Assembly: GCA_024280295.1 (NCBI GenBank)
Contig: JAJRQK010000039.1
Coordinates: 62,001-126,000, forward strand
From: Bacteroidota bacterium
GTDB taxonomy: Bacteria; Bacteroidota; Bacteroidia; Flavobacteriales_D; Crocinitomicaceae
Length of the DNA stretch: 64,000 nt
Reading direction: 5' to 3'
The notes below the pieces were generated by a model. It was not told where the DNA came from. It saw nothing but the letters and a program-made list of their open reading frames with translations, and made no database searches. Made by a program: the position numbers and the translations under genes. Shown here piece by piece: positions 26,207 to 62,856 of this stretch; positions within the stretch are counted from its first letter, which is position 1, and each line of letters begins with the position of its first letter.

Positions 26207-26252
26207 TTCGATTTTAAGACAGCCTTGAAATCGCTTTAAGAAAAACGTATTT

Positions 26253-26391
26253 GCGTTAGGGATAGCAATGAAAATCCTTTATCGATTGGAGTGATAGTTG
26301 AGTTCTAAAGGAAAAAACGATAGCTCTTTGACTTGGATTACGAAACTCACTGAAAACGGTAAAGATTGAAATGTAAAGCCCGAAAAACGCC
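26253..26391 (+). repeat. Structured intergenic element, copy B
   Basis: GCGTT (26253-26257) can pair with AACGC (26386-26390), and TCCTTT with AAAGGA inside. Shared with copy A: the closing stem, a start like GCGTnAGnGAT, the ATCCTTT hairpin, and AAAGCnCG near the 3' end. The closing pair changes from G-C in copy A to T-A here, which keeps the pairing. It lies in a convergent intergenic gap, like copy A. Confidence 0.5.
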
Positions 26392-47719: not shown

Positions 47720-48133
47720 TTATTTCCTGAAAATGAAGTAAGCCGCAGCAACAAGGCACATAACTGCCCATATATAGTCGATCTTGATTGGCTTATTCAT
47801 CGCGATAATCGAAAATGGAATGAACATCAACAATGATATTCCGATTTGAATCACTTGAAGTTGCATTAGAGATAATTCTTGACTCCCAATTCGGTTAGCA
47901 GGAATGTGAAAATTATACTCGAAAAAAGCGATTCCCCAACTAACCATCGCGGCAATAAACCAATGCTTCTGATCAAGCCATCTTAAATGAAGATACCATG
48001 CGCACAACATAAAAATGTTGGATGCGCTAAGTAATAAGATTGTTTTTACAAGTACTGACAAAGTAATTCTTAGGTTAATTTTCTCGACAAAATTAGGAAA
48101 AGATTCCTTTATCACGCATTTGCAAAGATTCAC
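47720..48133 (-). CDS. DMT family (DUF486) membrane protein
   Basis: 137 residues, four helices. ASNIFMLCAWYLHLRW, WFIAAMVSWGIAFFEYNFHIPANRIG and LQVIQIGISLLMFIPFSI are the DUF486 signature. The family usually begins close to KTILLLSASN, so the true start may be downstream, for example at a TTG near 48065, making about 115 residues. Function unknown; related to the drug/metabolite transporter superfamily. Confidence 0.8.
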   Translation of the reverse strand: MNLCKCVIKESFPNFVEKINLRITLSVLVKTILLLSASNIFMLCAWYLHLRWLDQKHWFIAAMVSWGIAFFEYNFHIPANRIGSQELSLMQLQVIQIGISLLMFIPFSIIAMNKPIKIDYIWAVMCLVAAAYFIFRK

Positions 48134-48194
48134 GTTGCTAATTTAATTGGCTTTGGAATCATATTTGTACTACTTTTATCAAAAAAAGCACACT

Positions 48195-48743
48195 ATGAAA
48201 TCAATACTTGTACTCTTTTTATTTGTCGGGACGTTTTCATTTGGTCAAGATGAAGTTGTCTATGAATTCGGTAGTGTCCAATTTATGGAGCGTGTCCCAA
48301 ATGTTGGAACCAATAGAGTAAAGAGAATGGCCACAACCATTAATACATATATTTCTTCTATCGTAAATAAGGGATATGACGATTGGTATGCATCATTTTC
48401 TGACAGTACAATTCAACGCGTAGCACCTCACAAATTCAAGAATAAATTTAAGCGATTACAAGAGTACGGCTTTCATTCTGACTCAATAAGGGTGATCTCT
48501 ATTACTCAACTTCGCAAACCGTATGCGAATGAAATTGGAAACGAATATGTAGTGGTTTTGGATTTCGGACACGATTTAAATGTTGCAAATCGCGTAAGTT
48601 TTGATCATTTAAAAAGAACTGACGACAACACAAATGTGCGTTATTTTTCACTGAACGTAATTACGATTGATAAAGATTTTGAAATTTGCATTCATAAGTA
48701 TGGAAGTGATAAACAAAATGCGAATCAACAAGAGCAATGGTAA
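48195..48743 (+). CDS. Exported protein of unknown function
   Basis: 182 residues from the ATG at 48195, which gives a clean signal peptide (MKSILVLFLFVGTFSFGQ). The mature part has IVNKGYDDWYASFSD, a segment of alternating residues, and ends with many Gln and Asn. I do not recognise it. A near-match -7 element (CATATTTG) lies upstream. It precedes the molybdenum-linked operon by 45 nt, but is not obviously part of it. Confidence 0.6.
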   Translation: MKSILVLFLFVGTFSFGQDEVVYEFGSVQFMERVPNVGTNRVKRMATTINTYISSIVNKGYDDWYASFSDSTIQRVAPHKFKNKFKRLQEYGFHSDSIRVISITQLRKPYANEIGNEYVVVLDFGHDLNVANRVSFDHLKRTDDNTNVRYFSLNVITIDKDFEICIHKYGSDKQNANQQEQW

Positions 48744-48788: not shown

Positions 48789-49859
48789 ATGAAAAATGCA
48801 TTAAAAATCCTCTACATCCTCATTGCAGGAGTTGGTGTATTTTTCATAAATAACATCTATTTTCTTCTCGGCGTAATTGGATTCCATTTACTCCTATTCT
48901 TAGTTGTGAAAAATCCTCAAAAAAGCCTTAAATTTATTTGGAAGGTAAAGTGGTTCATCTTGATCATTTTCCTTTTTCATGCTCTTTCATTCAGTGGAGA
49001 AATTCAACTTTTAAAACTAAAAAATTGGGTGCTTACACTCAGTTATGATGGATTGCTAGCAGGGTCAATTATGGCGTGTAAGCTGATTTCCATGCTCTTT
49101 ATTACCCAAGTTGTACGTTTATCAATGGCAAGTGGAGAATTTGTGCAAGGGATGACTAAACTAGGGCTTTCCAAAAACAATTCGGATATAATCGATCAAA
49201 TAATGACGATCGTTACTGAAGAAAAGGGTAAGAAGGGAAAGGGAAAGGGCAAAGGCAAGAATAAACAAGAATCTGATATACAATCAAAGGATGTCCTATT
49301 GAAAGGTAAAATAGGCAATATTCCAAACAGAATATTTGAGAAAATCACTTTTGCTAAAGGGAAATTTACTGATAATCCTAATGCAATTGTTGCTGCGTCA
49401 TCGCTTTCGGTAACACTTATTCGCCTTGTGAAAATAGCACCAGGTCTGCCATTAGCACCAGGACACAAAAACATACTTCTCATGCCTGTGATGATCCATG
49501 GTATTGTGAAATCTAAAAATCGCTTTGCAGGATCTCAAATTGGCTTTATTTCTGGAATATTGCACTTCAGTATGGGGTTTGGGAAATATGGCCCTCTCGG
49601 CATTGTACAATTCGCTCTACTCGGATTTATTCTTGACCTCCTTTTTAAAATTCCAGTAAATAAATCCCGGTTATGGTTCTTAATGCTTGCAGGGGGAATC
49701 GGCGGACTAGTTCGAATTTCAAGCGAAGTGTTATTGGCTGTTATTTTAGGAATGCCAAACACTTTTTTTCTTGTACTTTTGCCCTACATAATTTCTCAAG
49801 TTGCTTTCGGAGCCGCGTCGGGATTTATTACGAAACCTTTAATCAAACAGAAATCATGA
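48789..49859 (+). CDS. Membrane protein resembling a fused ECF-transporter T and S component
   Basis: 356 residues. N-terminal part (1-145) has about five helices and resembles the EcfT/CbiQ pattern (SYDGLLAGSIMACKLISMLF, then a helix ending MASGEFVQGMTKLGLSKN). A basic linker (146-159, KGK repeats encoded by GGNAAR hexamers) follows. The C-terminal part (200-350) has about five helices with LAPGHKNILLMPVMIHGIV and GFISGILHFSMGFGKYGPLG, which recall ECF substrate-binding S proteins. No ATPase gene is next to it. Its stop overlaps the next start (ATGA), so it is co-translated with MoSto-like subunits. The T-S fusion and any molybdate link are inference. Confidence 0.55.
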   Translation: MKNALKILYILIAGVGVFFINNIYFLLGVIGFHLLLFLVVKNPQKSLKFIWKVKWFILIIFLFHALSFSGEIQLLKLKNWVLTLSYDGLLAGSIMACKLISMLFITQVVRLSMASGEFVQGMTKLGLSKNNSDIIDQIMTIVTEEKGKKGKGKGKGKNKQESDIQSKDVLLKGKIGNIPNRIFEKITFAKGKFTDNPNAIVAASSLSVTLIRLVKIAPGLPLAPGHKNILLMPVMIHGIVKSKNRFAGSQIGFISGILHFSMGFGKYGPLGIVQFALLGFILDLLFKIPVNKSRLWFLMLAGGIGGLVRISSEVLLAVILGMPNTFFLVLLPYIISQVAFGAASGFITKPLIKQKS

Positions 49860-50701
49860 GTCAATTCGTCAAAGAAAACGAAGACCGTGGAAGAACACAT
49901 TTGGATTCACGTTTCATGCGAGAATCTCTTGTTGATAAGCAAGTTCTCAAAGATGCAGTTGTAGACAATGAGATTGCCATTCTTCCCTATTTAAATATAA
50001 TCAACCTTGGTGGTAAGAGTATTATCGATCGAGGGCGAGAAGGAGTGATTGGTGTATTAGAAGAACTCAAAGAGCTAAAAGGAAAACATAAATTTGTCGT
50101 TGGAGTTACTGGAGGAATCCGTGTTCAACATACAATGGCTATTGGGCTGGATTTCGGACTTCCAACTGGTGGTTTAGCCATGTTAGTAGGTGCAATTGAA
50201 GAGCAAAATGCAACGATGATTTATTCGCTAATGGCCAAAGAAGGAGCTGTTCGCGTACCGAAAGATCACTACACTGATCTTCCTCATTACTTAGATAATG
50301 GAATGATTCCGATTTTAACATCAAATCCACCTCATCACTATTGGGAAAAACCGCCAAAAAATGGAGTGTTACCAGAAAGTGGAGCAGATTTCGGAGCATA
50401 TATGACCGCAGAAGGATTAGGAGGCCGATCCATGATTTTTGTAAAAGATCAAGATGGATTATATGATAAAGATCCTGCTATTCACAGTGACGCAAAATTA
50501 ATTGAGAGGATCTCAGCACAAGAAATATTAGCGGGTGATTTTCCCGAATTAATCATTGATCGCTTAGTGATTGAAATGTTAGCAAAAGCTCGACACGTTA
50601 AAGAAATTCATATTGTGAATGGCTTGAAACGAGGAAATATTACCAAGGCAATCAATGGTGAAAATGCAGGAACAATCATCTATAAAGACGAATCGAAATG
50701 A
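49856..50701 (+). CDS. Molybdenum storage protein (MoSto)-like subunit, first of two
   Basis: 281 residues from the ATG at 49856, which overlaps the previous stop (ATGA). Amino-acid-kinase fold: INLGGKSIIDRGREGV, VGVTGGIRVQHTMAIGLDFGLPTGGLAMLVG and GLYDKDPAI. The pattern GGxSxxDRG with a RxxH motif after it, and the ARHVKEIHIVNGLKRG end, fit the MosA/MosB (molybdenum storage) subgroup rather than UMP kinase or aspartokinase. In Azotobacter, MoSto stores polyoxomolybdate in a cage driven by ATP. Which subunit (alpha or beta) it is I cannot tell. It overlaps the next gene by 4 nt. Confidence 0.72.
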   Translation: MSQFVKENEDRGRTHLDSRFMRESLVDKQVLKDAVVDNEIAILPYLNIINLGGKSIIDRGREGVIGVLEELKELKGKHKFVVGVTGGIRVQHTMAIGLDFGLPTGGLAMLVGAIEEQNATMIYSLMAKEGAVRVPKDHYTDLPHYLDNGMIPILTSNPPHHYWEKPPKNGVLPESGADFGAYMTAEGLGGRSMIFVKDQDGLYDKDPAIHSDAKLIERISAQEILAGDFPELIIDRLVIEMLAKARHVKEIHIVNGLKRGNITKAINGENAGTIIYKDESK

Positions 50702-51489
50702 GTAAAATGAACGAACTAGCGGACTTCATGCAAGATTCGCTTATAGAAGCTTCGGCGAACTACAAAAATGATCTGCGAATACTTCCCGATGCAAAGGTGA
50801 TGAAAATGGGAGGTCAAAGTATCAACGATCGAGGACGATCTGTAGTTTTTCCAATAATTGATGAAATCGTTGAGAATGCTAAAAAGCACGACATCATCAT
50901 CACAACAGGAGGTGGAACGAGAGCACGTCACACCTATCAAGTAGGAATCGATCTTGGAATGCCTGTTGGAGTACTTTCCGAAATGGGAGGTGCAATCACT
51001 GTTCAAAACGCACGAATGTTGCAGATGGTCATGGCAAAGCACGGTGGGATTTTTCTTGATCATCTCGAATTTGAAAAAATTCCGTTGTTTTTAAAGTTGG
51101 GATGTATCCCAATTATGCCTGGAATGCCACCTTATAGTTTCTGGGAAGACATTCCTGATCAAGGACAAATACCGATTCATCGAACTGATTGTGGCGCGTT
51201 TTTCACTGCTGAGGCGCTAGGCGCCGAATCAGTCTATTTCATTAAAGATGAAAGAGGACTCTATACTGAAGATCCAAAGAAAAATCCGAATGCTGAATTC
51301 ATCCAAAGAATTCATGTTGACGACCTGATTAAGGAGGATCTTGGAGATTTAATTGTTGAGCGCGTTATTTTAGAATATTTAAAGCGATCAAAATTCGTTA
51401 ACCAACTCGTAATGGTAAATGGAATGGAAAAGGGCGCTTTAACTGAATCTTTGGCTGAAAACCCAACGGGGACGGTAATTTACAAGTAA
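50698..51489 (+). CDS. Molybdenum storage protein (MoSto)-like subunit, second of two
   Basis: 263 residues, overlapping the previous gene by ATGA. MKMGGQSINDRGRSVVFP, ITTGGGTRARHTYQVGIDLGM, MAKHGGIFLD and NGMEKGALTES follow the MosA/MosB pattern. In Azotobacter MoSto the cluster is bound by Glu and His residues of both subunits; the His in AKHGG is a candidate. The pair with the previous gene, of different sequence, fits the alpha/beta hexamer of MoSto. The nearby modABC supports a role in molybdenum handling. Alternative: paralogous amino-acid kinases of unknown use. Confidence 0.72.
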   Translation: MSKMNELADFMQDSLIEASANYKNDLRILPDAKVMKMGGQSINDRGRSVVFPIIDEIVENAKKHDIIITTGGGTRARHTYQVGIDLGMPVGVLSEMGGAITVQNARMLQMVMAKHGGIFLDHLEFEKIPLFLKLGCIPIMPGMPPYSFWEDIPDQGQIPIHRTDCGAFFTAEALGAESVYFIKDERGLYTEDPKKNPNAEFIQRIHVDDLIKEDLGDLIVERVILEYLKRSKFVNQLVMVNGMEKGALTESLAENPTGTVIYK

Positions 51490-51616
51490 CAAAAAATCTA
51501 GCGCCTCTCCTCATTGAGCTGGCAGGTCTAGACTAAAATCTAGTTAATCAGTCTAACATATCATTAGATAATCAATCATGTCCCTGTGATCTCTGGGTAG
51601 TTACGATCTTTTGTCC

Positions 51617-51624
51617 TATCTTTG
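51617..51624 (+). promoter_or_regulatory. -7 promoter element (TATCTTTG) of the T9SS gene
   Basis: Exact TAnnTTTG, 22 nt before the ATG at 51647. No TTTG at -33. Confidence 0.5.
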
Positions 51625-51646
51625 ATAGACTTAAACTCTATTTTTT

Positions 51647-53572
51647 ATGAAAAGAATCTTACTATTACTTGTCGTATTAGCGACAACATCCAATGCGTTT
51701 TCGCAATCTGCACCCCTCTATGCTACGTCTCCGTATACGGATACATTGTGGATGATTGTAGATACCACTACAATGGCAGTAAACGTTCCAGGGACAGCGA
51801 TTACGTCAATTTTAGGGACGGTAACTGGTTCAAATGGCTTAACAATTGATCCATGTTCTGGGGCAGCGTATGTTTCTTTGAAATTTAGCGGCGTTATAGG
51901 TCGTGTGATTTGTTCATTAAACTTAACAACAGGAGTAGCTGATACTATTGTAAATGTTGGAGACAATGTTGCGAATATTGACTTAATTAATGATTCTATT
52001 ATTGCTATCATTTTTGGTGATGGAGCTACGGCAAGTGAGTCTTTAGGACTTGTTAATATTAATGATTCTACATACACTGCCGTTGGACCAACAACTACAG
52101 CAGGATCGGATGGTGAAAGTCTTGCTTATTGTCCTGATAATGACAGACTATATCGTTTCTCAGGAAGGAATACAGCGAATGTATTTGAGTATTATGATGT
52201 TGCTTTGCCAATCGGTGTAGATGTTCCAATTACAGGATGGGATTGGGATGAAACTTTCAGTTCGACATATATTGGTGGTGGTCAATTTTTAACCGCTAAC
52301 CTAGATCAAGAGTTTGTTCTTGTAGATACTAATGGATATTCTATTCTTCTTCCACAAACAACTGGTGCTAACTATTTCAAAGGATTAGCATTTGGTGGGC
52401 CGTCTATTTCTTTTGTTGCCGCAGGTACGGATTCAATCTGTCCTTTTGGGGACACCACGGTATTAGGAGCATCTAGTTCAGTTGGATATCAGTGGTACAT
52501 GGATGGCACTTTAATTGCTGGTGCAACGAATCAAACATATTCGGCTACGGCTGCAGGAACTTATACATGTGAACTTGTAAACGGAACTTGTACTGGGTTT
52601 GCATCTGAATCATTGGTTGTATCAACTTTCGCAGTTGATACTGCTATAGTGACACCAGTTAACCCTGCATTTTGTGCTGGAGACAGTGTTTTAATAACAG
52701 GAAACACCGGTACTGGATTGAATGGGTGGTGGTTCGCTGGCCTTAACGTTAACACAACGACAACAATTAATGCCGCTGTAGCTGGTGGTTATTCATACCG
52801 TCTTCAAACTGGAGCTTGTTATGATGAAGTAACGGTAACAGTTATTGAAAATGTACTTCCTACAGTTGTAGCTAATGCTGATCAAGCATCTTATTGTGAT
52901 GGTGACATGGTTACTTTAACAGGAAGTGGTGCTGATTCGTACACATGGGATAACAGTGTTATAGATGGATCTCCATTTACTCAAGCCGTTGGAGCTCCAG
53001 TAATGTATCATTTAACTGGTACTGATACTATAACTGGATGTGTGAACATTGATTCTATCGCTGTTAATGTATTCCCTAATCCTACTGCCTCAGGAACATC
53101 AACTGATGAGATTTTCGGAAATGACGGTGCTATTGATGGAACCTTCACAGGAGCTCCAATTTTAACGTTTGACTGGGATAATGATGGAACAGGTGATTTT
53201 GATGATCCTGAAGATTTAACTGGATTGACAGCTGGAACTTATACAGTAGTAGTTATGGACGGAAACGGATGTACTTCAACAACGCAAGTTATTGTAGGGT
53301 CACAAGTTGGATTGAATGAGTTCGGATTGAATGCTGAAATGTCAATCTATCCTAATCCAAATGACGGAATCTTTACTGTTGACTTCGCGAACATGGCAAC
53401 TGAGAACTTGATGGTTCAAATTGTTGATGCTTCAGGAAAAATAGTATTTAATACAGATGTCACTGGTAATTCTGTTGATGTTAACATTGTTGAATTTGGA
53501 GCAGGAACTTATACACTTCGAATTACGGATGGCACGCATAATGCAACAAAACAAATTATTGTAGGTAAGTAA
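51647..53572 (+). CDS. T9SS type A cargo protein with beta-propeller-like and Ig-like domains
   Basis: 641 residues with a signal peptide ending AFSQ. Residues 25-260 have repeats with GLTIDPCSGAAYVSLKF and SLAYCPDNDRLYRFSG, the look of a beta-propeller. Then Ig-like domains with YQWYMDGTLIAGATNQTY and SYTWDN. The C-terminus (MSIYPNPNDGIFTV, IVDASGKIVF, TKQIIVGK) is a T9SS type A signal. The next T9SS gene starts 1 nt later, and the terminator of this gene lies inside it. Confidence 0.85.
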   Translation: MKRILLLLVVLATTSNAFSQSAPLYATSPYTDTLWMIVDTTTMAVNVPGTAITSILGTVTGSNGLTIDPCSGAAYVSLKFSGVIGRVICSLNLTTGVADTIVNVGDNVANIDLINDSIIAIIFGDGATASESLGLVNINDSTYTAVGPTTTAGSDGESLAYCPDNDRLYRFSGRNTANVFEYYDVALPIGVDVPITGWDWDETFSSTYIGGGQFLTANLDQEFVLVDTNGYSILLPQTTGANYFKGLAFGGPSISFVAAGTDSICPFGDTTVLGASSSVGYQWYMDGTLIAGATNQTYSATAAGTYTCELVNGTCTGFASESLVVSTFAVDTAIVTPVNPAFCAGDSVLITGNTGTGLNGWWFAGLNVNTTTTINAAVAGGYSYRLQTGACYDEVTVTVIENVLPTVVANADQASYCDGDMVTLTGSGADSYTWDNSVIDGSPFTQAVGAPVMYHLTGTDTITGCVNIDSIAVNVFPNPTASGTSTDEIFGNDGAIDGTFTGAPILTFDWDNDGTGDFDDPEDLTGLTAGTYTVVVMDGNGCTSTTQVIVGSQVGLNEFGLNAEMSIYPNPNDGIFTVDFANMATENLMVQIVDASGKIVFNTDVTGNSVDVNIVEFGAGTYTLRITDGTHNATKQIIVGK

Positions 53573-53573
53573 A

Positions 53574-54431
53574 ATGCCAACGACTAAAAATATAACGAAA
53601 CAAAAAAAGGTGGCATTGCGCTACCTTTTTTTGTTTGTTGCTTTGTTTATCTCCAATACGAGTAACGCTCAGAGCAACTGTGAAGCCGGATTCGTTTATG
53701 GGATGGATCACTGTCCAAACATTTATTTCTATGATAATTCGACCGCAGATAGTACGATCGTTTGTTGGATGTTTGACTACAATGGAGAAGGAAATATAGA
53801 CTGGTGTGAAAATGCCCACAACAAATTCGACTCTAATGGAGTTTTCCTAGTCTGTATCTCAATAATGACCATTGACGGATGTATGGATTCTTTCTGTGAT
53901 TCGATAGAGATTACTTGCGTTTGTGATAAACCTGAAGCTGGTTTTACATATTCTCAAACAGGAAATGCCTGTAACTTTACCGATACTAGTCTGGTGTATG
54001 ATATACCAAATACAACTTGGTTTTGGGATTTTGGTGATGGAATTACGAGTACTTCAGAAGACCCATCCCACACCTACACTTCTAATGGAACATTTATGGC
54101 ATGTTTGACTGTCACAGACACATGTAAAGTATCTACTATATGTCAACAGATCGTTGTAAACACAGCCGGCCTTACCGAGTTTGAAAACACCAATGTAAAT
54201 GTCTACCCAATACCTGCAACTGACTGGATCAAGGTGGCAACAGAACAATCAAATGCGGCCTTAGTTGAAGTCTATACTCTGAGTGGAAAAATATTGATTA
54301 GAGAACGCGTATTGCATGCTGAAAAACCTCACTACCTAGGTGTTAGCGGACTAAAAAACGGTCAATACTATTTACGCGTAACGGATGACGAAAACAATAT
54401 TAGCCATCATCCAATCATTGTCAGGCATTAG
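53574..54431 (+). CDS. PKD-domain T9SS type A cargo protein
   Basis: 285 residues. The start codon ATG at 53574 gives 12 extra residues before the signal-peptide core; a GTG at 53611 (VALRYLFLFVALFIS) would fit a usual signal peptide. A Cys-rich first domain (NCEAGFVYGMDHCPN, CWMFDYNGEG) precedes a PKD domain (TTWFWDFGDGITSTSEDPSHTY). The end (VNVYPIPATDWIKV, VYTLSGKIL, HPIIVRH) is T9SS type A. Its stop codon overlaps the stop of convergent modC. A terminator hairpin lies in its 5' end. Confidence 0.8.
   Translation: MPTTKNITKQKKVALRYLFLFVALFISNTSNAQSNCEAGFVYGMDHCPNIYFYDNSTADSTIVCWMFDYNGEGNIDWCENAHNKFDSNGVFLVCISIMTIDGCMDSFCDSIEITCVCDKPEAGFTYSQTGNACNFTDTSLVYDIPNTTWFWDFGDGITSTSEDPSHTYTSNGTFMACLTVTDTCKVSTICQQIVVNTAGLTEFENTNVNVYPIPATDWIKVATEQSNAALVEVYTLSGKILIRERVLHAEKPHYLGVSGLKNGQYYLRVTDDENNISHHPIIVRH
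53602..53632 (+). terminator. Intrinsic terminator inside the 5' end of the downstream gene
   Basis: AAAAAAAGGT (53602-53611) pairs perfectly with ACCTTTTTTT (53623-53632) around an inner GGC/GCT stem, with the T-run as part of the arm. It is 30 nt past the stop at 53572, the right place to end the 51647 transcript, yet it lies in codons of the next gene. Confidence 0.7.
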
Positions 54432-55108
54432 AGACTTCTCGCTAGTACGTCTTGGGGTAATCCCTGTTCGAACGTACCATTTTCCTTAAGGTGGATAACT
54501 TCCTCTGCCAATTTGAAAATAATATCCTTTCGATGGCTTACAACCAAGATCATAATTGGATTCAGTTTACGAATCGTCTGAATTACTTTAATCAGTTCTG
54601 CTATAGTGTCATCATCCAACGCAGAAAATGGCTCATCTAAAAGCAGCGCCTCTGGTTGTTGACAAAGTGCACGTAAAATCGCCACGCGTTGTTTTTGTCC
54701 GCCGGATAACTCGTGTGGATAGGAAGACATCAAACTCTCCACTTCGAGTGTTTGTATCATCTCATGAACTACGTTAGGAATCTCATTGTTCTTGCTCGCG
54801 TACAGCATGTTCTTCTCCACCGTCATTGTTGGAAAGAGGTTGTACTCCTGAAACACAAAGCCTATATTTCTACGAGCCACATCCAGATTGACCTTCTTTG
54901 AACTTGCAAACCATGTTTGATCTTTGAATACAACTTCGCCCGAGTCCGGAGTTTCAAGCCCCGCAATCATCCTCAGAACAGAAGACTTGCCTACCCCAGA
55001 TTTCCCATAAAAAGCCGTAATTTTCTCAGTATCAATAGAAGTCTTCAATTGAATAGTCACGGATCTCCTTCGCGATTTAAATTTCTTATGGAGGTTGACT
55101 CTAAGCAA
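54428..55108 (-). CDS. modC: Molybdate ABC transporter ATP-binding protein
   Basis: 226 residues. Walker A GKSGVGKSS, signature LSGGQKQR, Walker B ALLLDEPFSALD, H-loop VVSHRKD. Powers import through ModB. It lacks the C-terminal TOBE/Mop domain of full-length ModC (about 350 residues in E. coli), so it cannot sense molybdate that way. Overlaps modB by 8 nt. Its stop overlaps that of the convergent T9SS gene. Confidence 0.85.
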   Translation of the reverse strand: MLRVNLHKKFKSRRRSVTIQLKTSIDTEKITAFYGKSGVGKSSVLRMIAGLETPDSGEVVFKDQTWFASSKKVNLDVARRNIGFVFQEYNLFPTMTVEKNMLYASKNNEIPNVVHEMIQTLEVESLMSSYPHELSGGQKQRVAILRALCQQPEALLLDEPFSALDDDTIAELIKVIQTIRKLNPIMILVVSHRKDIIFKLAEEVIHLKENGTFEQGLPQDVLARSL

Positions 55109-55766
55109 CGTGAAATCGTTTTTTTCGAATGATCAGATTCAGAGTGACTATCAGAATAAAACTAACAATCAATAAAATCATCGCGTAATTATTTGCAACA
55201 TCATAGTTCAAAGCATTCATCTCGTCATAAATCGCAACAGATGCAACATTCGTTTCCGCCATTTTTCCTCCTATCATAAGAACTAACCCAAATTCGCCAA
55301 TGGTATGCGCGAAAGTTAATACGATTCCACTCCAAATCGAGGTCTTGATCGTTGGGAGATATACTTTCCAGAGGGCGTTTATCTTCTTCTTCCCTAACAA
55401 TTGAACGGACTCCTTCATGTTTCGCGGAATTTCTCGCAAGCCACTCGTTATAGGACTAATCATAAAAGGGAGGCAATAAATGACCGACCCTAGTAATATT
55501 CCTTCAAAGGAAAACGCAAATGCAAGATCAAAATGCTCTTCAAAAAATGCACCAATACTTGATTCGGGTCCTAAATAAGACAAGAAGTAAAAGCCCAAAA
55601 CTGTGGGAGGTAAAATAATTGGGAGCATTAATAGACTCTCTAAAATGATTTTTCCTCTCCATCTCGAAAAGGCCAAGAAATGACTAATCGGAATTGCGAC
55701 AAAAAAAAGGATTACTGTTGTTAGCAGTGCTAATTTAGCAGTTACAAGAAACGGTGTGTAATCCAT
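55101..55766 (-). CDS. modB: Molybdate ABC transporter permease
   Basis: 221 residues, five helices. The EAA-type cytosolic loop is present around LREIPRNMKESVQLLGKKKINALWKVYLP, where ModC docks, and TFAHTIGEFGLVLMIGG is a ModB hallmark. Forms the pore. Overlaps modC by 8 nt and follows modA by 3 nt. Confidence 0.92.
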   Translation of the reverse strand: MDYTPFLVTAKLALLTTVILFFVAIPISHFLAFSRWRGKIILESLLMLPIILPPTVLGFYFLSYLGPESSIGAFFEEHFDLAFAFSFEGILLGSVIYCLPFMISPITSGLREIPRNMKESVQLLGKKKINALWKVYLPTIKTSIWSGIVLTFAHTIGEFGLVLMIGGKMAETNVASVAIYDEMNALNYDVANNYAMILLIVSFILIVTLNLIIRKKRFHVA

Positions 55767-55769
55767 TCT

Positions 55770-56531
55770 TTACTTAATTGTGTAGCCAAAATGAACGAGA
55801 ATTTCCCGACATTCATCCGAAGATAAGAAATCAAGGAATGTTTTTGATTCCTCTGGATGATTTTTCTTTCCAGATTTCAAAATTAATGCGCCTTGTTTTA
55901 TTTCTGGGTAGAACTTGGAATCAATTTCCATCACTTGATGACCCTTCTGAAATTTATTAACGAATGAATAACTCGTAAAGGCAGCATCAACAGCATTAGT
56001 TTTAATGTACTGATTCACTTGCCCTACACTCTCTCCAATAATAATTTTCTCCTCAATCTTTGACCGAATGCCACTCTTTTTCAAGAACGACTCTGCCGCA
56101 ATTCCATAAGGTGCGGTTTTACTATCGGGAACTCCAATTCGTTTAATTTTAGAATCAATCAACAGTTCATTGGGCGAATTATACTTCTTCCCTTTTGAAT
56201 ATATTAGCGCCAATCTTCCATAAGCATAAACAGAAACGCTATCTCCAAACCCTGATTTTATCAACTCATTTGGGTAACGCATATTCGCTGAAACGAACAA
56301 ATCAAAAGGAGCACCATTTTGGATTTGAGCAGTAAGCATTCCTGATGAATTAGAAGTTACATCGCATTTAATTTCATGGATCTCCGTAAAGACTGAAGTT
56401 ATAGAATCCATTGCGAGTTGCATATTGGCAGCTGTCGCTATTTTCAGAATAACAACATCTTTTCGTTCAGAATCAGGATTTCCGCAACTGAAAAGTACGG
56501 TGAATAAAATGAAAATTATGATTCTATTCAT
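55770..56531 (-). CDS. modA: Molybdate-binding lipoprotein
   Basis: 253 residues from the ATG at 56531; the frame extends further but only into the ompA-like gene. Lipoprotein signal ending LFSCG (Cys at about 14). ModA features: LKIATAANMQLAMDSITSVF, SSGMLTAQIQNGAPFDLFVSAN and ALIYSKGKKY. Binds molybdate, or tungstate, in the periplasm and delivers it to ModB. Overlaps the upstream ompA-like gene by 8 nt. Confidence 0.9.
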   Translation of the reverse strand: MNRIIIFILFTVLFSCGNPDSERKDVVILKIATAANMQLAMDSITSVFTEIHEIKCDVTSNSSGMLTAQIQNGAPFDLFVSANMRYPNELIKSGFGDSVSVYAYGRLALIYSKGKKYNSPNELLIDSKIKRIGVPDSKTAPYGIAAESFLKKSGIRSKIEEKIIIGESVGQVNQYIKTNAVDAAFTSYSFVNKFQKGHQVMEIDSKFYPEIKQGALILKSGKKNHPEESKTFLDFLSSDECREILVHFGYTIK

Positions 56532-61281: not shown

Positions 61282-62856
61282 TTAATACTTAGAAGCGATT
61301 TCTTTTGCTACCGTTGCTAAAACATCCGTTAATTCATCTGAATACTTTCCAGCTTTCAATAAATCCAGCGTATCTCTGTGCTTTGCATCTAAGAAATCAA
61401 GGTATTCGTTTTCAAATTCTTTCACTTTCTTCACTGGAACATTTTGAATCAATCCTTTCGTGCCAACATAGATGATTGCAATTTGTTTTTCAACTGGGTA
61501 AGGATCTCCTTCTTTTTGCTTCAGAATTTCCACGTTACGAGCACCTTTATCAAGTACAGATTTCGTTGCAGCATCTAAATCAGACCCGAACTTAGCAAAT
61601 GCTTCTAGTTCACGATACTGCGCTTGATCCAACTTTAATGTCCCTGCTACTTTCTTCATTGATTTAATCTGAGCAGATCCACCAACACGAGATACCGAGA
61701 TACCAACGTTAATCGCTGGACGGATACCTGCGTTAAACAAGTCACCTTCTAAGAAGATTTGACCATCAGTAATCGAAATTACGTTTGTTGGAATATAAGC
61801 AGATACATCACCCGCTTGCGTTTCAATAATTGGCAATGCTGTCAATGATCCGCCACCTTTAACTTTCCCTTTCAAAGAATCAGGAAGATCGTTCATTTGA
61901 GAAGCAATCTTGTCATCATTAATTATTTTTGCTGCACGTTCCAACAATCTTGAGTGAAGATAGAATACATCTCCTGGGTAGGCCTCACGACCTGGAGGAC
62001 GGCGAAGAAGAAGCGATACTTCACGGTAGGCAACGGCTTGTTTTGACAAATCATCAAATACAATAAGTGCTGGTCTACCTGTATCACGGAAATACTCACC
62101 TACAGCAGCTCCTGTCATTGGAGAGTAAAATTGCATTGGTGCTGGATCAGATGCATTTGACGCAACAACGACTGTATAAGCCATTGCTCCTGCATTTTCC
62201 AATTTCTGAACGATCCCTGCAACCGTTGAACCTTTTTGTCCAATTGCGACATAGATACAAAATACAGGTTCTCCTGCATCGTAAAATTCTTTCTGGTTGA
62301 TGATTGTATCGATACAAACAGTAGTCTTACCTGTCTGACGGTCACCAATAACTAACTCACGTTGTCCACGACCTACTGGAATCATTGCATCCACTGCTTT
62401 GATTCCTGTTTGTAACGGCTCACTTACCGGTTGACGGTAAATAACTCCTGGTGCTTTACGCTCAATTGGCATTTCGAATAATTCTCCTTCGATAGGTCCT
62501 TTCCCATCAATTGGATTGCCCAAAGTGTCAATAACACGTCCAACGAGTCCTTCACCAACCTGAACAGAAGCAATTCTTCCGAGACGTTTTACCGTATCGC
62601 CCTCTTTTACTTTATCAGATCGACCTAGAAGTACTGCTCCTACGTTATCTTCTTCGAGGTTCAAAGCAATCCCTTGCAGTCCACCATCAAATTCAATTAA
62701 TTCACCGTATTGAACTCCTTGCAATCCATATACTCGGCAAATACCATCTCCAATTTGGAGTACTGTACCGATTTCTTGCAACTCAGCTTCCGAACGGAAT
62801 CCTGAAAGTTGTTCTCTTAATATTGCAGAAACTTCTGCTGGTTTTACATCTGCCAT
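61282..62856 (-). CDS. atpA: F1Fo ATP synthase alpha subunit
   Basis: 524 residues. P-loop GDRQTGKT at 171-178, [48 protein letters not shown], and [28 protein letters not shown]. Non-catalytic nucleotide-binding subunit of F1. It lies 26 nt before atpG and 32 nt after atpH. Confidence 0.97.

Follow-up and report, generated by a model that had tools for sequence, protein, structure and literature searches.

Most work on the molybdenum storage protein, MoSto, concerns a single nitrogen-fixing bacterium, and its usual explanation is that of a reserve for nitrogenase. In Azotobacter vinelandii, MoSto consists of two homologous subunits of the amino-acid-kinase fold that are encoded by adjacent genes, and its hexameric cage stores polyoxomolybdate at the expense of ATP. 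Molybdate importers of the ModABC type and the transporters of the energy-coupling factor (ECF) class, with their EcfT and S components (CbiQ, YkoE and ThiT among them), are the other described systems closest to the locus reported here. This locus lies in a 64,000-nucleotide stretch of a Bacteroidota genome of the Crocinitomicaceae (GenBank assembly GCA_024280295.1, contig JAJRQK010000039.1, forward-strand positions 62,001 to 126,000), which we call the window and number from its first letter; the contig measures 259 kb and the genome (G000 among our genome and locus handles, G and L) 3.46 Mb, at a completeness of 98.8%. Three forward-strand genes encode a 356-aa membrane protein, which we read as a fusion of EcfT with an S component (48789..49859), and two MoSto-like subunits, A (281 aa, 49856..50701) and B (263 aa, 50698..51489). 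The cassette is real, conserved and unusual. Its storage subunits add a new branch to the known MoSto family and its membrane protein combines ECF parts in a new variant, while we advance their joint function as a hypothesis.

The three open reading frames and the two ATGA overlaps that the original prediction had pointed out are present as claimed: stop and start codons share 49856..49859 between the membrane-protein gene and A, and 50698..50701 between A and B. As in A. vinelandii, then, two homologous subunits of the same fold are encoded side by side, with A carrying a longer N-terminal arm than B, but here a storage gene also overlaps a membrane-protein gene. The overlaps recur in Bacteroidota. 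Among the seven relatives in which both junctions were read, the membrane-protein gene and A overlap by 4, 4, 4, 8, 8, 8 and 32 bases and A and B by 1 or 4 bases, which with the window makes eight loci with coding overlaps, whereas in three loci of the Glassbacteria phylum short gaps separate neighbouring genes and there is no overlap (e.g., a gap of 47 bases in L017).

Both subunits have MoSto, rather than a metabolic kinase, as their nearest relative of known structure. In phmmer searches of the PDB, the top match of A and B was the beta subunit of A. vinelandii MoSto (E = 3.5e-54 and 1.9e-64, respectively) and the second its alpha subunit (1.5e-42 and 1e-39), while ordinary kinases followed at 2e-7 or weaker, more than 40 orders of magnitude behind. 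The homology spans nearly the whole length of both proteins, the A subunit of the Glassbacteria phylum is likewise closer to MoSto than to kinases, and all NCBIfam kinase models scored far under their cut-offs on A and B. A maximum-likelihood tree of 59 proteins separated 47 MoSto-like sequences from 12 outgroup sequences with a support of 99/98. The outgroup, taken from 12 of the 31 loci L027-L057 (L023, L024 and L026 were left out), consists of UMP kinases (11) and an isopentenyl phosphate kinase (1), all above their NCBIfam cut-offs, and includes no aspartate kinase; L135 and L136 do not figure in the tree or in the residue table discussed below. The MoSto features originally proposed for A and B are borne out in this way, with their distance from UMP kinases seen in the tree and that from aspartate kinases in the hidden Markov model scores and PDB matches only. 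Window A groups with the A subunits of Bacteroidota and the A and A0 subunits of the Glassbacteria phylum (100/99), and window B with the B subunits of both (100/99); MosA and MosB of A. vinelandii and Azospirillum group instead with the subunits of clusters that contain an ABC-2-type transporter (99/96 and 95/89), the deep order within the MoSto family being weak and the program having warned of long outgroup branches. On sequence grounds, A and B are shown to be a MoSto-type pair that forms, with its Glassbacteria-phylum relatives, its own branches of the family, a difference from A. vinelandii MoSto. Constraining the A subunits of both clades to a single clade lowered the likelihood by 19.9 (p-AU 0.043); the A/B split may be separate from the MosA/MosB split, and given this borderline value we do not claim an independent duplication. 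On an Azospirillum plasmid, a mosB gene (L123:7974-8786) is annotated as a uridine kinase and its neighbour as MoSto alpha.

The two subunits differ in what they keep of the active site. In the 47-row alignment that serves as residue table, the catalytic lysine of the kinase fold is, in our numbering, MosA Lys45 and MosB Lys42. All 15 A-type subunits of the window's clade have Asn, Ser, Ala, Met or Phe in its place (Asn50 in window A), whereas all 12 B subunits (Lys36 in window B) and the 20 other rows retain it. A methionine aligned with MosB Met149, described as the gate for molybdate, is also present in all 12 B subunits, that of the window included. Window B therefore resembles MoSto in keeping both the catalytic lysine and the gate methionine and should be an ATP-driven molybdate pump; window A, having lost the lysine, departs from MoSto and should be a non-catalytic structural partner.

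For the membrane protein, an ECF-like nature had been proposed, and both sequence models and predicted folds point the same way. Residues 5-133 weakly match the CbiQ/EcfT model TIGR02454 (E = 1.9e-6; 27.8 bits against an equivalog cut-off of 111.8), a model that 11 of 11 family members match at E<=0.1; the member in L017 passes the Pfam CbiQ cut-off (30.5 against 25), and the window fusion reaches 18.4 bits on the Pfam EcfT model. AlphaFold2 models of the fusion built from 8 and 11 sequences had a mean predicted local distance difference test score of 77 and 82, and in VIA-align comparisons their residues 1-198 fit EcfT and residues 191-356 fit ECF S components. The S half gave Z scores of 13.1 and 13.3 with 5edl (which we take to be YkoE), 11.3-12.7 with ThiT, 11.2-11.8 with PanT, 11.6 with FolT, 11.4-11.7 with HmpT and 9.6-9.9 with RibU. 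The T half aligned with the EcfT chain 7nnu_D at Z 10.9 (root-mean-square deviation (rmsd) 3.3, 152 residues aligned, model residues 1-156) and at Z 9.9 (rmsd 3.5, 182 aligned, EcfT residues 19-222), and with other EcfT chains at Z 7.3-10.3. ECF subunits filled the top 11 and top 14 rows of the VIA-align lists, and in the second of two Foldseek searches three EcfT chains had a probability of 0.96-0.98. From these models we concluded that the chain is probably an EcfT through its coupling helices (to about residue 192) followed by an S component (193-356). A Lys/Gly-rich loop of variable length (residues 149-165) lies between the two coupling helices. In other words, the N-terminal half is modelled like EcfT and the C-terminal half like an S component, as in ECF transporters, but T and S share one chain, the S domain begins where the model has followed EcfT to about residue 222 (of some 260), and the gene adjoins genes for a metal-oxyanion storage protein, with no EcfA-type gene seen beside it at the loci read. 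In the 11 relative loci, the ABC (ATP-binding cassette) ATPases found were ModC and, in addition, a PstB-like ATPase in L017 and one of ABC-2 type in L078.

The S half matched no S-component family in a Pfam scan of four members (best E = 0.088). Across 11 members, Arg212, Lys215, Lys227 and Arg309 are invariant and His226 is present in 10, around a motif RxxKxxxGxPxAPGxK, and Asp283 and Gln337 are invariant too; the basic residues, located in the alignment, would suit an anion. By profile, the S half also matches a free-standing 202-aa S-like protein of Desulfocicer (hhalign probability 89, E = 2.5e-6, 120 columns), whose gene adjoins one for an EcfA-EcfA-EcfT fusion, with ATPase parts identified by PF00005 and an EcfT part by our own reading; hhalign of the window's membrane family against this fusion itself gave nothing (E = 0.1). 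At that Desulfocicer locus (G463), L075:4992-7648 encodes the two ABC ATPase domains and the EcfT-like end, the free S-like protein scores 21.5 bits on PF09819 (under the cut-off of 25.2), and a convergent gene of no assigned family after the ECF genes has a product that begins MKILVCIDDTDNLES. By eye, this product (L075:7665-8417) belongs to a "DDTDNL" family also found beside single-gene MoSto-like proteins in two other Desulfobacterota (L021:8703-9455 and L022:8436-9185); the one member scanned had no Pfam match at E<=1. Just upstream of single-gene MoSto-like proteins we also noted, by eye, a small protein of about 75-90 aa with FYRER or FFRER ... PR(Y/F)R (L019:8533-8778, L020:9633-9863, L021:9694-9933 and L022:9528-9806). 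When the genomes with single-gene MoSto-like proteins (G456-G463) and that of Methanocella (G464) were searched for the fusion gene, seven of nine had no match at E<=0.01, G456 had a weak EcfT-like match (0.0016), and in G463 the query matched an EcfT as well as the free S-like protein (7e-8).

Next to the trio lies a complete set of molybdate transport genes on the reverse strand: modC (226 aa, 54428..55108), modB (55101..55766) and modA (55770..56531). ModA and ModB score above their NCBIfam cut-offs (161.4 bits on TIGR01256, scanned as a longer frame reaching 56678, and 198.4 bits on TIGR02141), and from its N-terminus we read ModA as a putative lipoprotein. ModC reaches 192 bits on TIGR02142 against a cut-off of 285 because it ends early, aligning to positions 4-222 of 353. 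The complete modA-modB-modC with a shortened ModC is thus as originally described; its distance of 5 kb holds for the start of modA, and modC lies only 2.9 kb from the second storage gene. As an importer, this ModABC is a normal member of its class except for the missing C-terminal domain of ModC, a feature shared with the Bacteroidota relatives, in which ModC measures 225-242 aa, against frames of 377-400 aa in the Glassbacteria-phylum loci L017, L077 and L078.

We surveyed genomes for this gene combination. Among 399 genomes sampled from the window's order, the fusion was found in 8 (E<=1e-6) and the MoSto pair in 11 (E<=1e-40), with all 8 within the 11 (Fisher p = 1.1e-14, relatedness ignored); among 249 genomes of the Glassbacteria phylum, it was found in 3 and the pair in 5, again with all 3 within the 5; and among 395 genomes sampled from the window's phylum, it was found only in the window's own. 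A chance neighbourhood was rejected on this co-occurrence (8/8 and 3/3). The fusion loci read number 12 and come from 11 genomes. They are that of the window, L013 and L061 (both G013), L014-L016, L118-L120, and L017, L077 and L078 from the Glassbacteria phylum (judging by contig number and coordinates, G900 is the same genome as G454, with L016, and G1001 the same as G453, with L015; each was counted once). The fusion gene directly adjoins MoSto genes in all 12, across two phyla. The mod neighbourhood proved to be conserved as well, with mod genes at most 9 kb away in 11 of the 12 loci and all three of them in 10; L014, whose contig ends inside modB, has modC and this partial modB. In L119, where 16 kb of a 21.5-kb contig were read, no mod gene was seen. 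Contigs also end inside the fusion gene in L015 and, at a locus without the fusion, inside modA in L121. The three Glassbacteria-phylum loci share the order A0, fusion, A, B, modA, modB, modC on one strand; L017 has a second ModA-like gene, and L077 and L078 carry a moaA gene (PF06463) at one or two genes' distance past modC, followed in L078 by a MOSC-domain gene. The bin G013 holds two different fusion-MoSto-mod cassettes (L013 and L061), either two copies or binning contamination (4%).

Where the fusion is absent, a different membrane module usually takes its place. In the six fusion-free MoSto-pair genomes of these surveys (G022, G032, G973, G732, G643 and G687), genes for an ABC-2 ATPase and its permease come after the pair; such a module stands in for the fusion in six of the eight MoSto-pair loci read without it, and one module or the other accompanies the pair in all 18 Bacteroidota and Glassbacteria-phylum loci read. 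These clusters resemble the window in combining a MoSto pair, at least one mod gene and a membrane module, with mod genes around (modA alone on the contig in L121), and differ in the type of module and in their MoSto subunits, which in the four of six genomes represented in the tree group with A. vinelandii MosA and MosB. Considering that a single genus holds genomes of either arrangement and that the MoSto types sit on different branches, whole cassettes have probably been exchanged between genomes. A strict mutual exclusion of the two modules was weakened by L078, a fusion locus with an upstream ABC-2 ATPase and an ABC2_membrane frame (PF01061), although this permease frame is unmatched by the permease query from the ABC-2-type clusters. 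Genes of the Alginate_exp and DUF2490 families lie beside MoSto clusters of both arrangements (L014:6502-7818, L118:14347-15627, L119:6297-7577 and L122:11760-13091; L059:1810-2523 and L077:4690-5352) and, if they encode outer-membrane barrels, offer a possible outer-membrane route for oxyanions.

Several other genes recur in the neighbourhood. A small membrane protein of the DMT_6 (DUF486) family is encoded upstream of the trio on the reverse strand (47720..48133; PF04342, E = 1.6e-37), with close relatives in L013, L016 and L061 and weak matches in L014 and L120; apparent tandem pairs of such genes lie near MoSto clusters at L058:14432-15141 and L120:13443-14161, the family label having been tested on the window gene and one L120 gene and assigned by eye to the others. 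Between it and the trio, on the forward strand, lies the gene of a putative exported protein of about 190 aa (48147..48743, its likely start downstream of the listed TTG), which had no Pfam match at E<=0.01 and tblastn matches in L013, L014 and L016, with a weak one in L015. The forward strand between the storage genes and modC (51647..54431) encodes two proteins that are predicted to be exported and end in type IX sorting tails (PF18962); they have relatives at several loci and belong to the neighbourhood, not to the machine that we propose. An Rfam scan of the window showed no molybdenum-cofactor riboswitch above the gathering score, and its sole listing was a Flavo-1 RNA far from the trio (26248-26389, forward strand; 43.8 against a gathering score of 42).

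As to what the store might serve, nifD had no match at E<=1e-10 in any of 15 genomes with a MoSto pair (three of them known to be less than 90% complete; G643 and G687 fall outside this set), a further difference from A. vinelandii, and scored above its cut-off in two of three genomes with single-gene MoSto-like proteins. G000 has strong matches to PF00384 (E = 1.6e-78, in a 919-aa frame; similar in G004 and G013) and to PF20256 (E = 4.7e-87, in a 782-aa frame), which by family match alone we take for formate-dehydrogenase-like and xanthine-dehydrogenase-like proteins. With molybdenum-enzyme families present and nifD unmatched, a link of the store to molybdopterin or tungsten enzymes is more likely than one to nitrogenase.

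Taken together with the homology, predicted fold, gene coupling, co-occurrence and residue pattern, these data lead us to favor, tentatively and at somewhat less than an even chance, an ECF-derived oxyanion carrier that feeds molybdate or tungstate to an ATP-driven MoSto cage acting as its sink. The fusion's substrate, its direction, its energy source or lack of a motor, and its contact with MoSto are the parts that we infer. In this mechanism, the trio would be a horizontally moving, molybdenum-handling cassette. The S domain, with Arg212, Lys215, Lys227 and Arg309, would bind the oxyanion, molybdate or tungstate, and move it inward; B would hydrolyze ATP and pump molybdate into the cage, keeping the inside of the cell empty of it, while A would cover the ATP site of B and line the cage. 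Because no EcfA gene accompanies the fusion, we propose that transport would be driven by the cage, which consumes ATP as it removes molybdate on the inside and which may be tethered to the membrane by the EcfT part. In this scheme, ModABC would remain the ordinary high-affinity uptake system, and the store would serve molybdopterin-type enzymes, not nitrogenase. Titles cited by PMC4820897, on solitary BioY and on S components for nickel or cobalt, point to a precedent for transport by S components without an ATPase. In a stronger version, which we consider doubtful, uptake and storage would form one machine, a single-chain EcfT–S carrier for molybdate or tungstate whose ABC motor has been swapped for a membrane-held MoSto cage; if true, MoSto's own ATP hydrolysis, with one live and one dead subunit, would pull the metal in and lock it away.

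A number of observations weigh against the proposed carrier and sink. The S-component fold is known for vitamins, nickel and cobalt, and we found no example of an oxyanion-binding S component. The ECF assignment relies on VIA-align Z scores in a range where helical bundles can mislead: over the S half, subunits of the methane- and ammonia-monooxygenase type scored Z 8.9-9.6, those of the methane-monooxygenase type coming up to the level of RibU, and Foldseek on the fusion models returned nothing at E<=0.001, with a GPCR (G-protein-coupled receptor) complex as top match. The cluster chemistry also fits incompletely. MosA His140, which we take to be a covalent ligand of the Mo8 cluster, and MosA Glu129 are absent at the aligned positions from 27 of 27 subunits of the window's clade, a difference from MoSto in which the His140 column is uncertain, lying in a gapped region of the alignment. 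An excerpt of PMC4504029 names His156 and Glu129 among the Mo8 ligands. A histidine aligned to His156 is found in nine of nine Bacteroidota A subunits (in window A within a PPHHYW motif) and in two of six A or A0 subunits of the Glassbacteria phylum, so that, of the cluster-binding residues that the original prediction proposed to check, His156 is kept in Bacteroidota and the other two are absent. Glu129 and His140 never occur together among the eight ABC-2-linked subunits aligned either, and this pair need not define the MoSto family. Furthermore, two fusion-bearing genomes (G453 and G454) match neither PF00384 nor PF20256, G004 and G013 do not match PF20256, and two Azospirillum plasmid mosAB loci have neither membrane module annotated in their 8-kb flanks, where the gene table is incomplete.

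The most serious rival holds that the fusion is half of an ordinary molybdate or tungstate ECF transporter that borrows an ABC ATPase, possibly ModC, and that MoSto just stores; we regard this as possible, if on the unlikely side. The models show both coupling helices, with EcfT residues 19-222 covered, ModC is encoded close by, and, according to PMC4820897, group II ECF modules are common to several S components and the coupling arginines of EcfT bind EcfA. Lysine or arginine is found near the ends of both coupling helices in most members of the family, in a T part whose alignment is rough, and it is these partly kept basic residues that leave an ATPase partner open to the fusion, counting against a carrier driven by the cage. 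Yet no arginine is invariant within residues 111-211 of the 11 members, and short ModC proteins occur also in ABC-2-type clusters that lack the fusion (232 aa in L058, 242 aa in L122). In genome searches, G000 has no match at the Pfam EcfT cut-off, where a divergent EcfT could be missed given that the fusion itself scores 18.4 bits, and its best EcfA-like scores are about 150 bits against the TIGR04520 cut-off of 315 (frames longer than 600 aa account for the two highest), a weak test considering that none of 11 genomes passed, even Desulfocicer with its evident ECF loci.

According to another rival, which we also place on the unlikely side, the fusion carries into or out of the cell a cargo other than molybdenum or tungsten (e.g., an organic cofactor precursor), or exports or senses molybdate, and its link with MoSto is one of regulation or detoxification. 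The ABC-2 class, whose ATPase and permease take the place of the fusion in the sister clusters, more often exports, and the top folds of the S half are thiamine S components (5edl and ThiT), though those of other vitamins lie within 2 Z units. Against this reading, an anion would suit the Arg and Lys residues that never vary in the S half, even if Asp283 and Gln337 are invariant too and PMC5037267 gives thiamine ligands for YkoE, and the neighbours are mod genes, with moaA in addition at two loci. Finally, an ordinary role of A and B as UMP, aspartate or isopentenyl-phosphate kinases, in a neighbourhood due to coincidence, is hardly credible: Pfam and NCBIfam name just the broad amino-acid-kinase fold, but the low NCBIfam scores, the lead of MoSto in the PDB search, the tree split from UMP and isopentenyl phosphate kinases and the conserved mod neighbourhood led us to reject such an annotation.

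In the literature, among the titles and abstract openings of the matches listed, with few subscription journals represented, no ECF component was tied to MoSto, and the ECF content of PMC13119186, as far as its available part goes, concerns cobalt. With a putative ECF-derived carrier and a MoSto-type pair encoded together, two questions become testable: by which route molybdate arrives at the cage, and whether a trap that consumes ATP can replace the ABC motor in driving an ECF carrier. The trio, which recurs in other bacteria, may show a new route for the uptake and storage of a trace metal.

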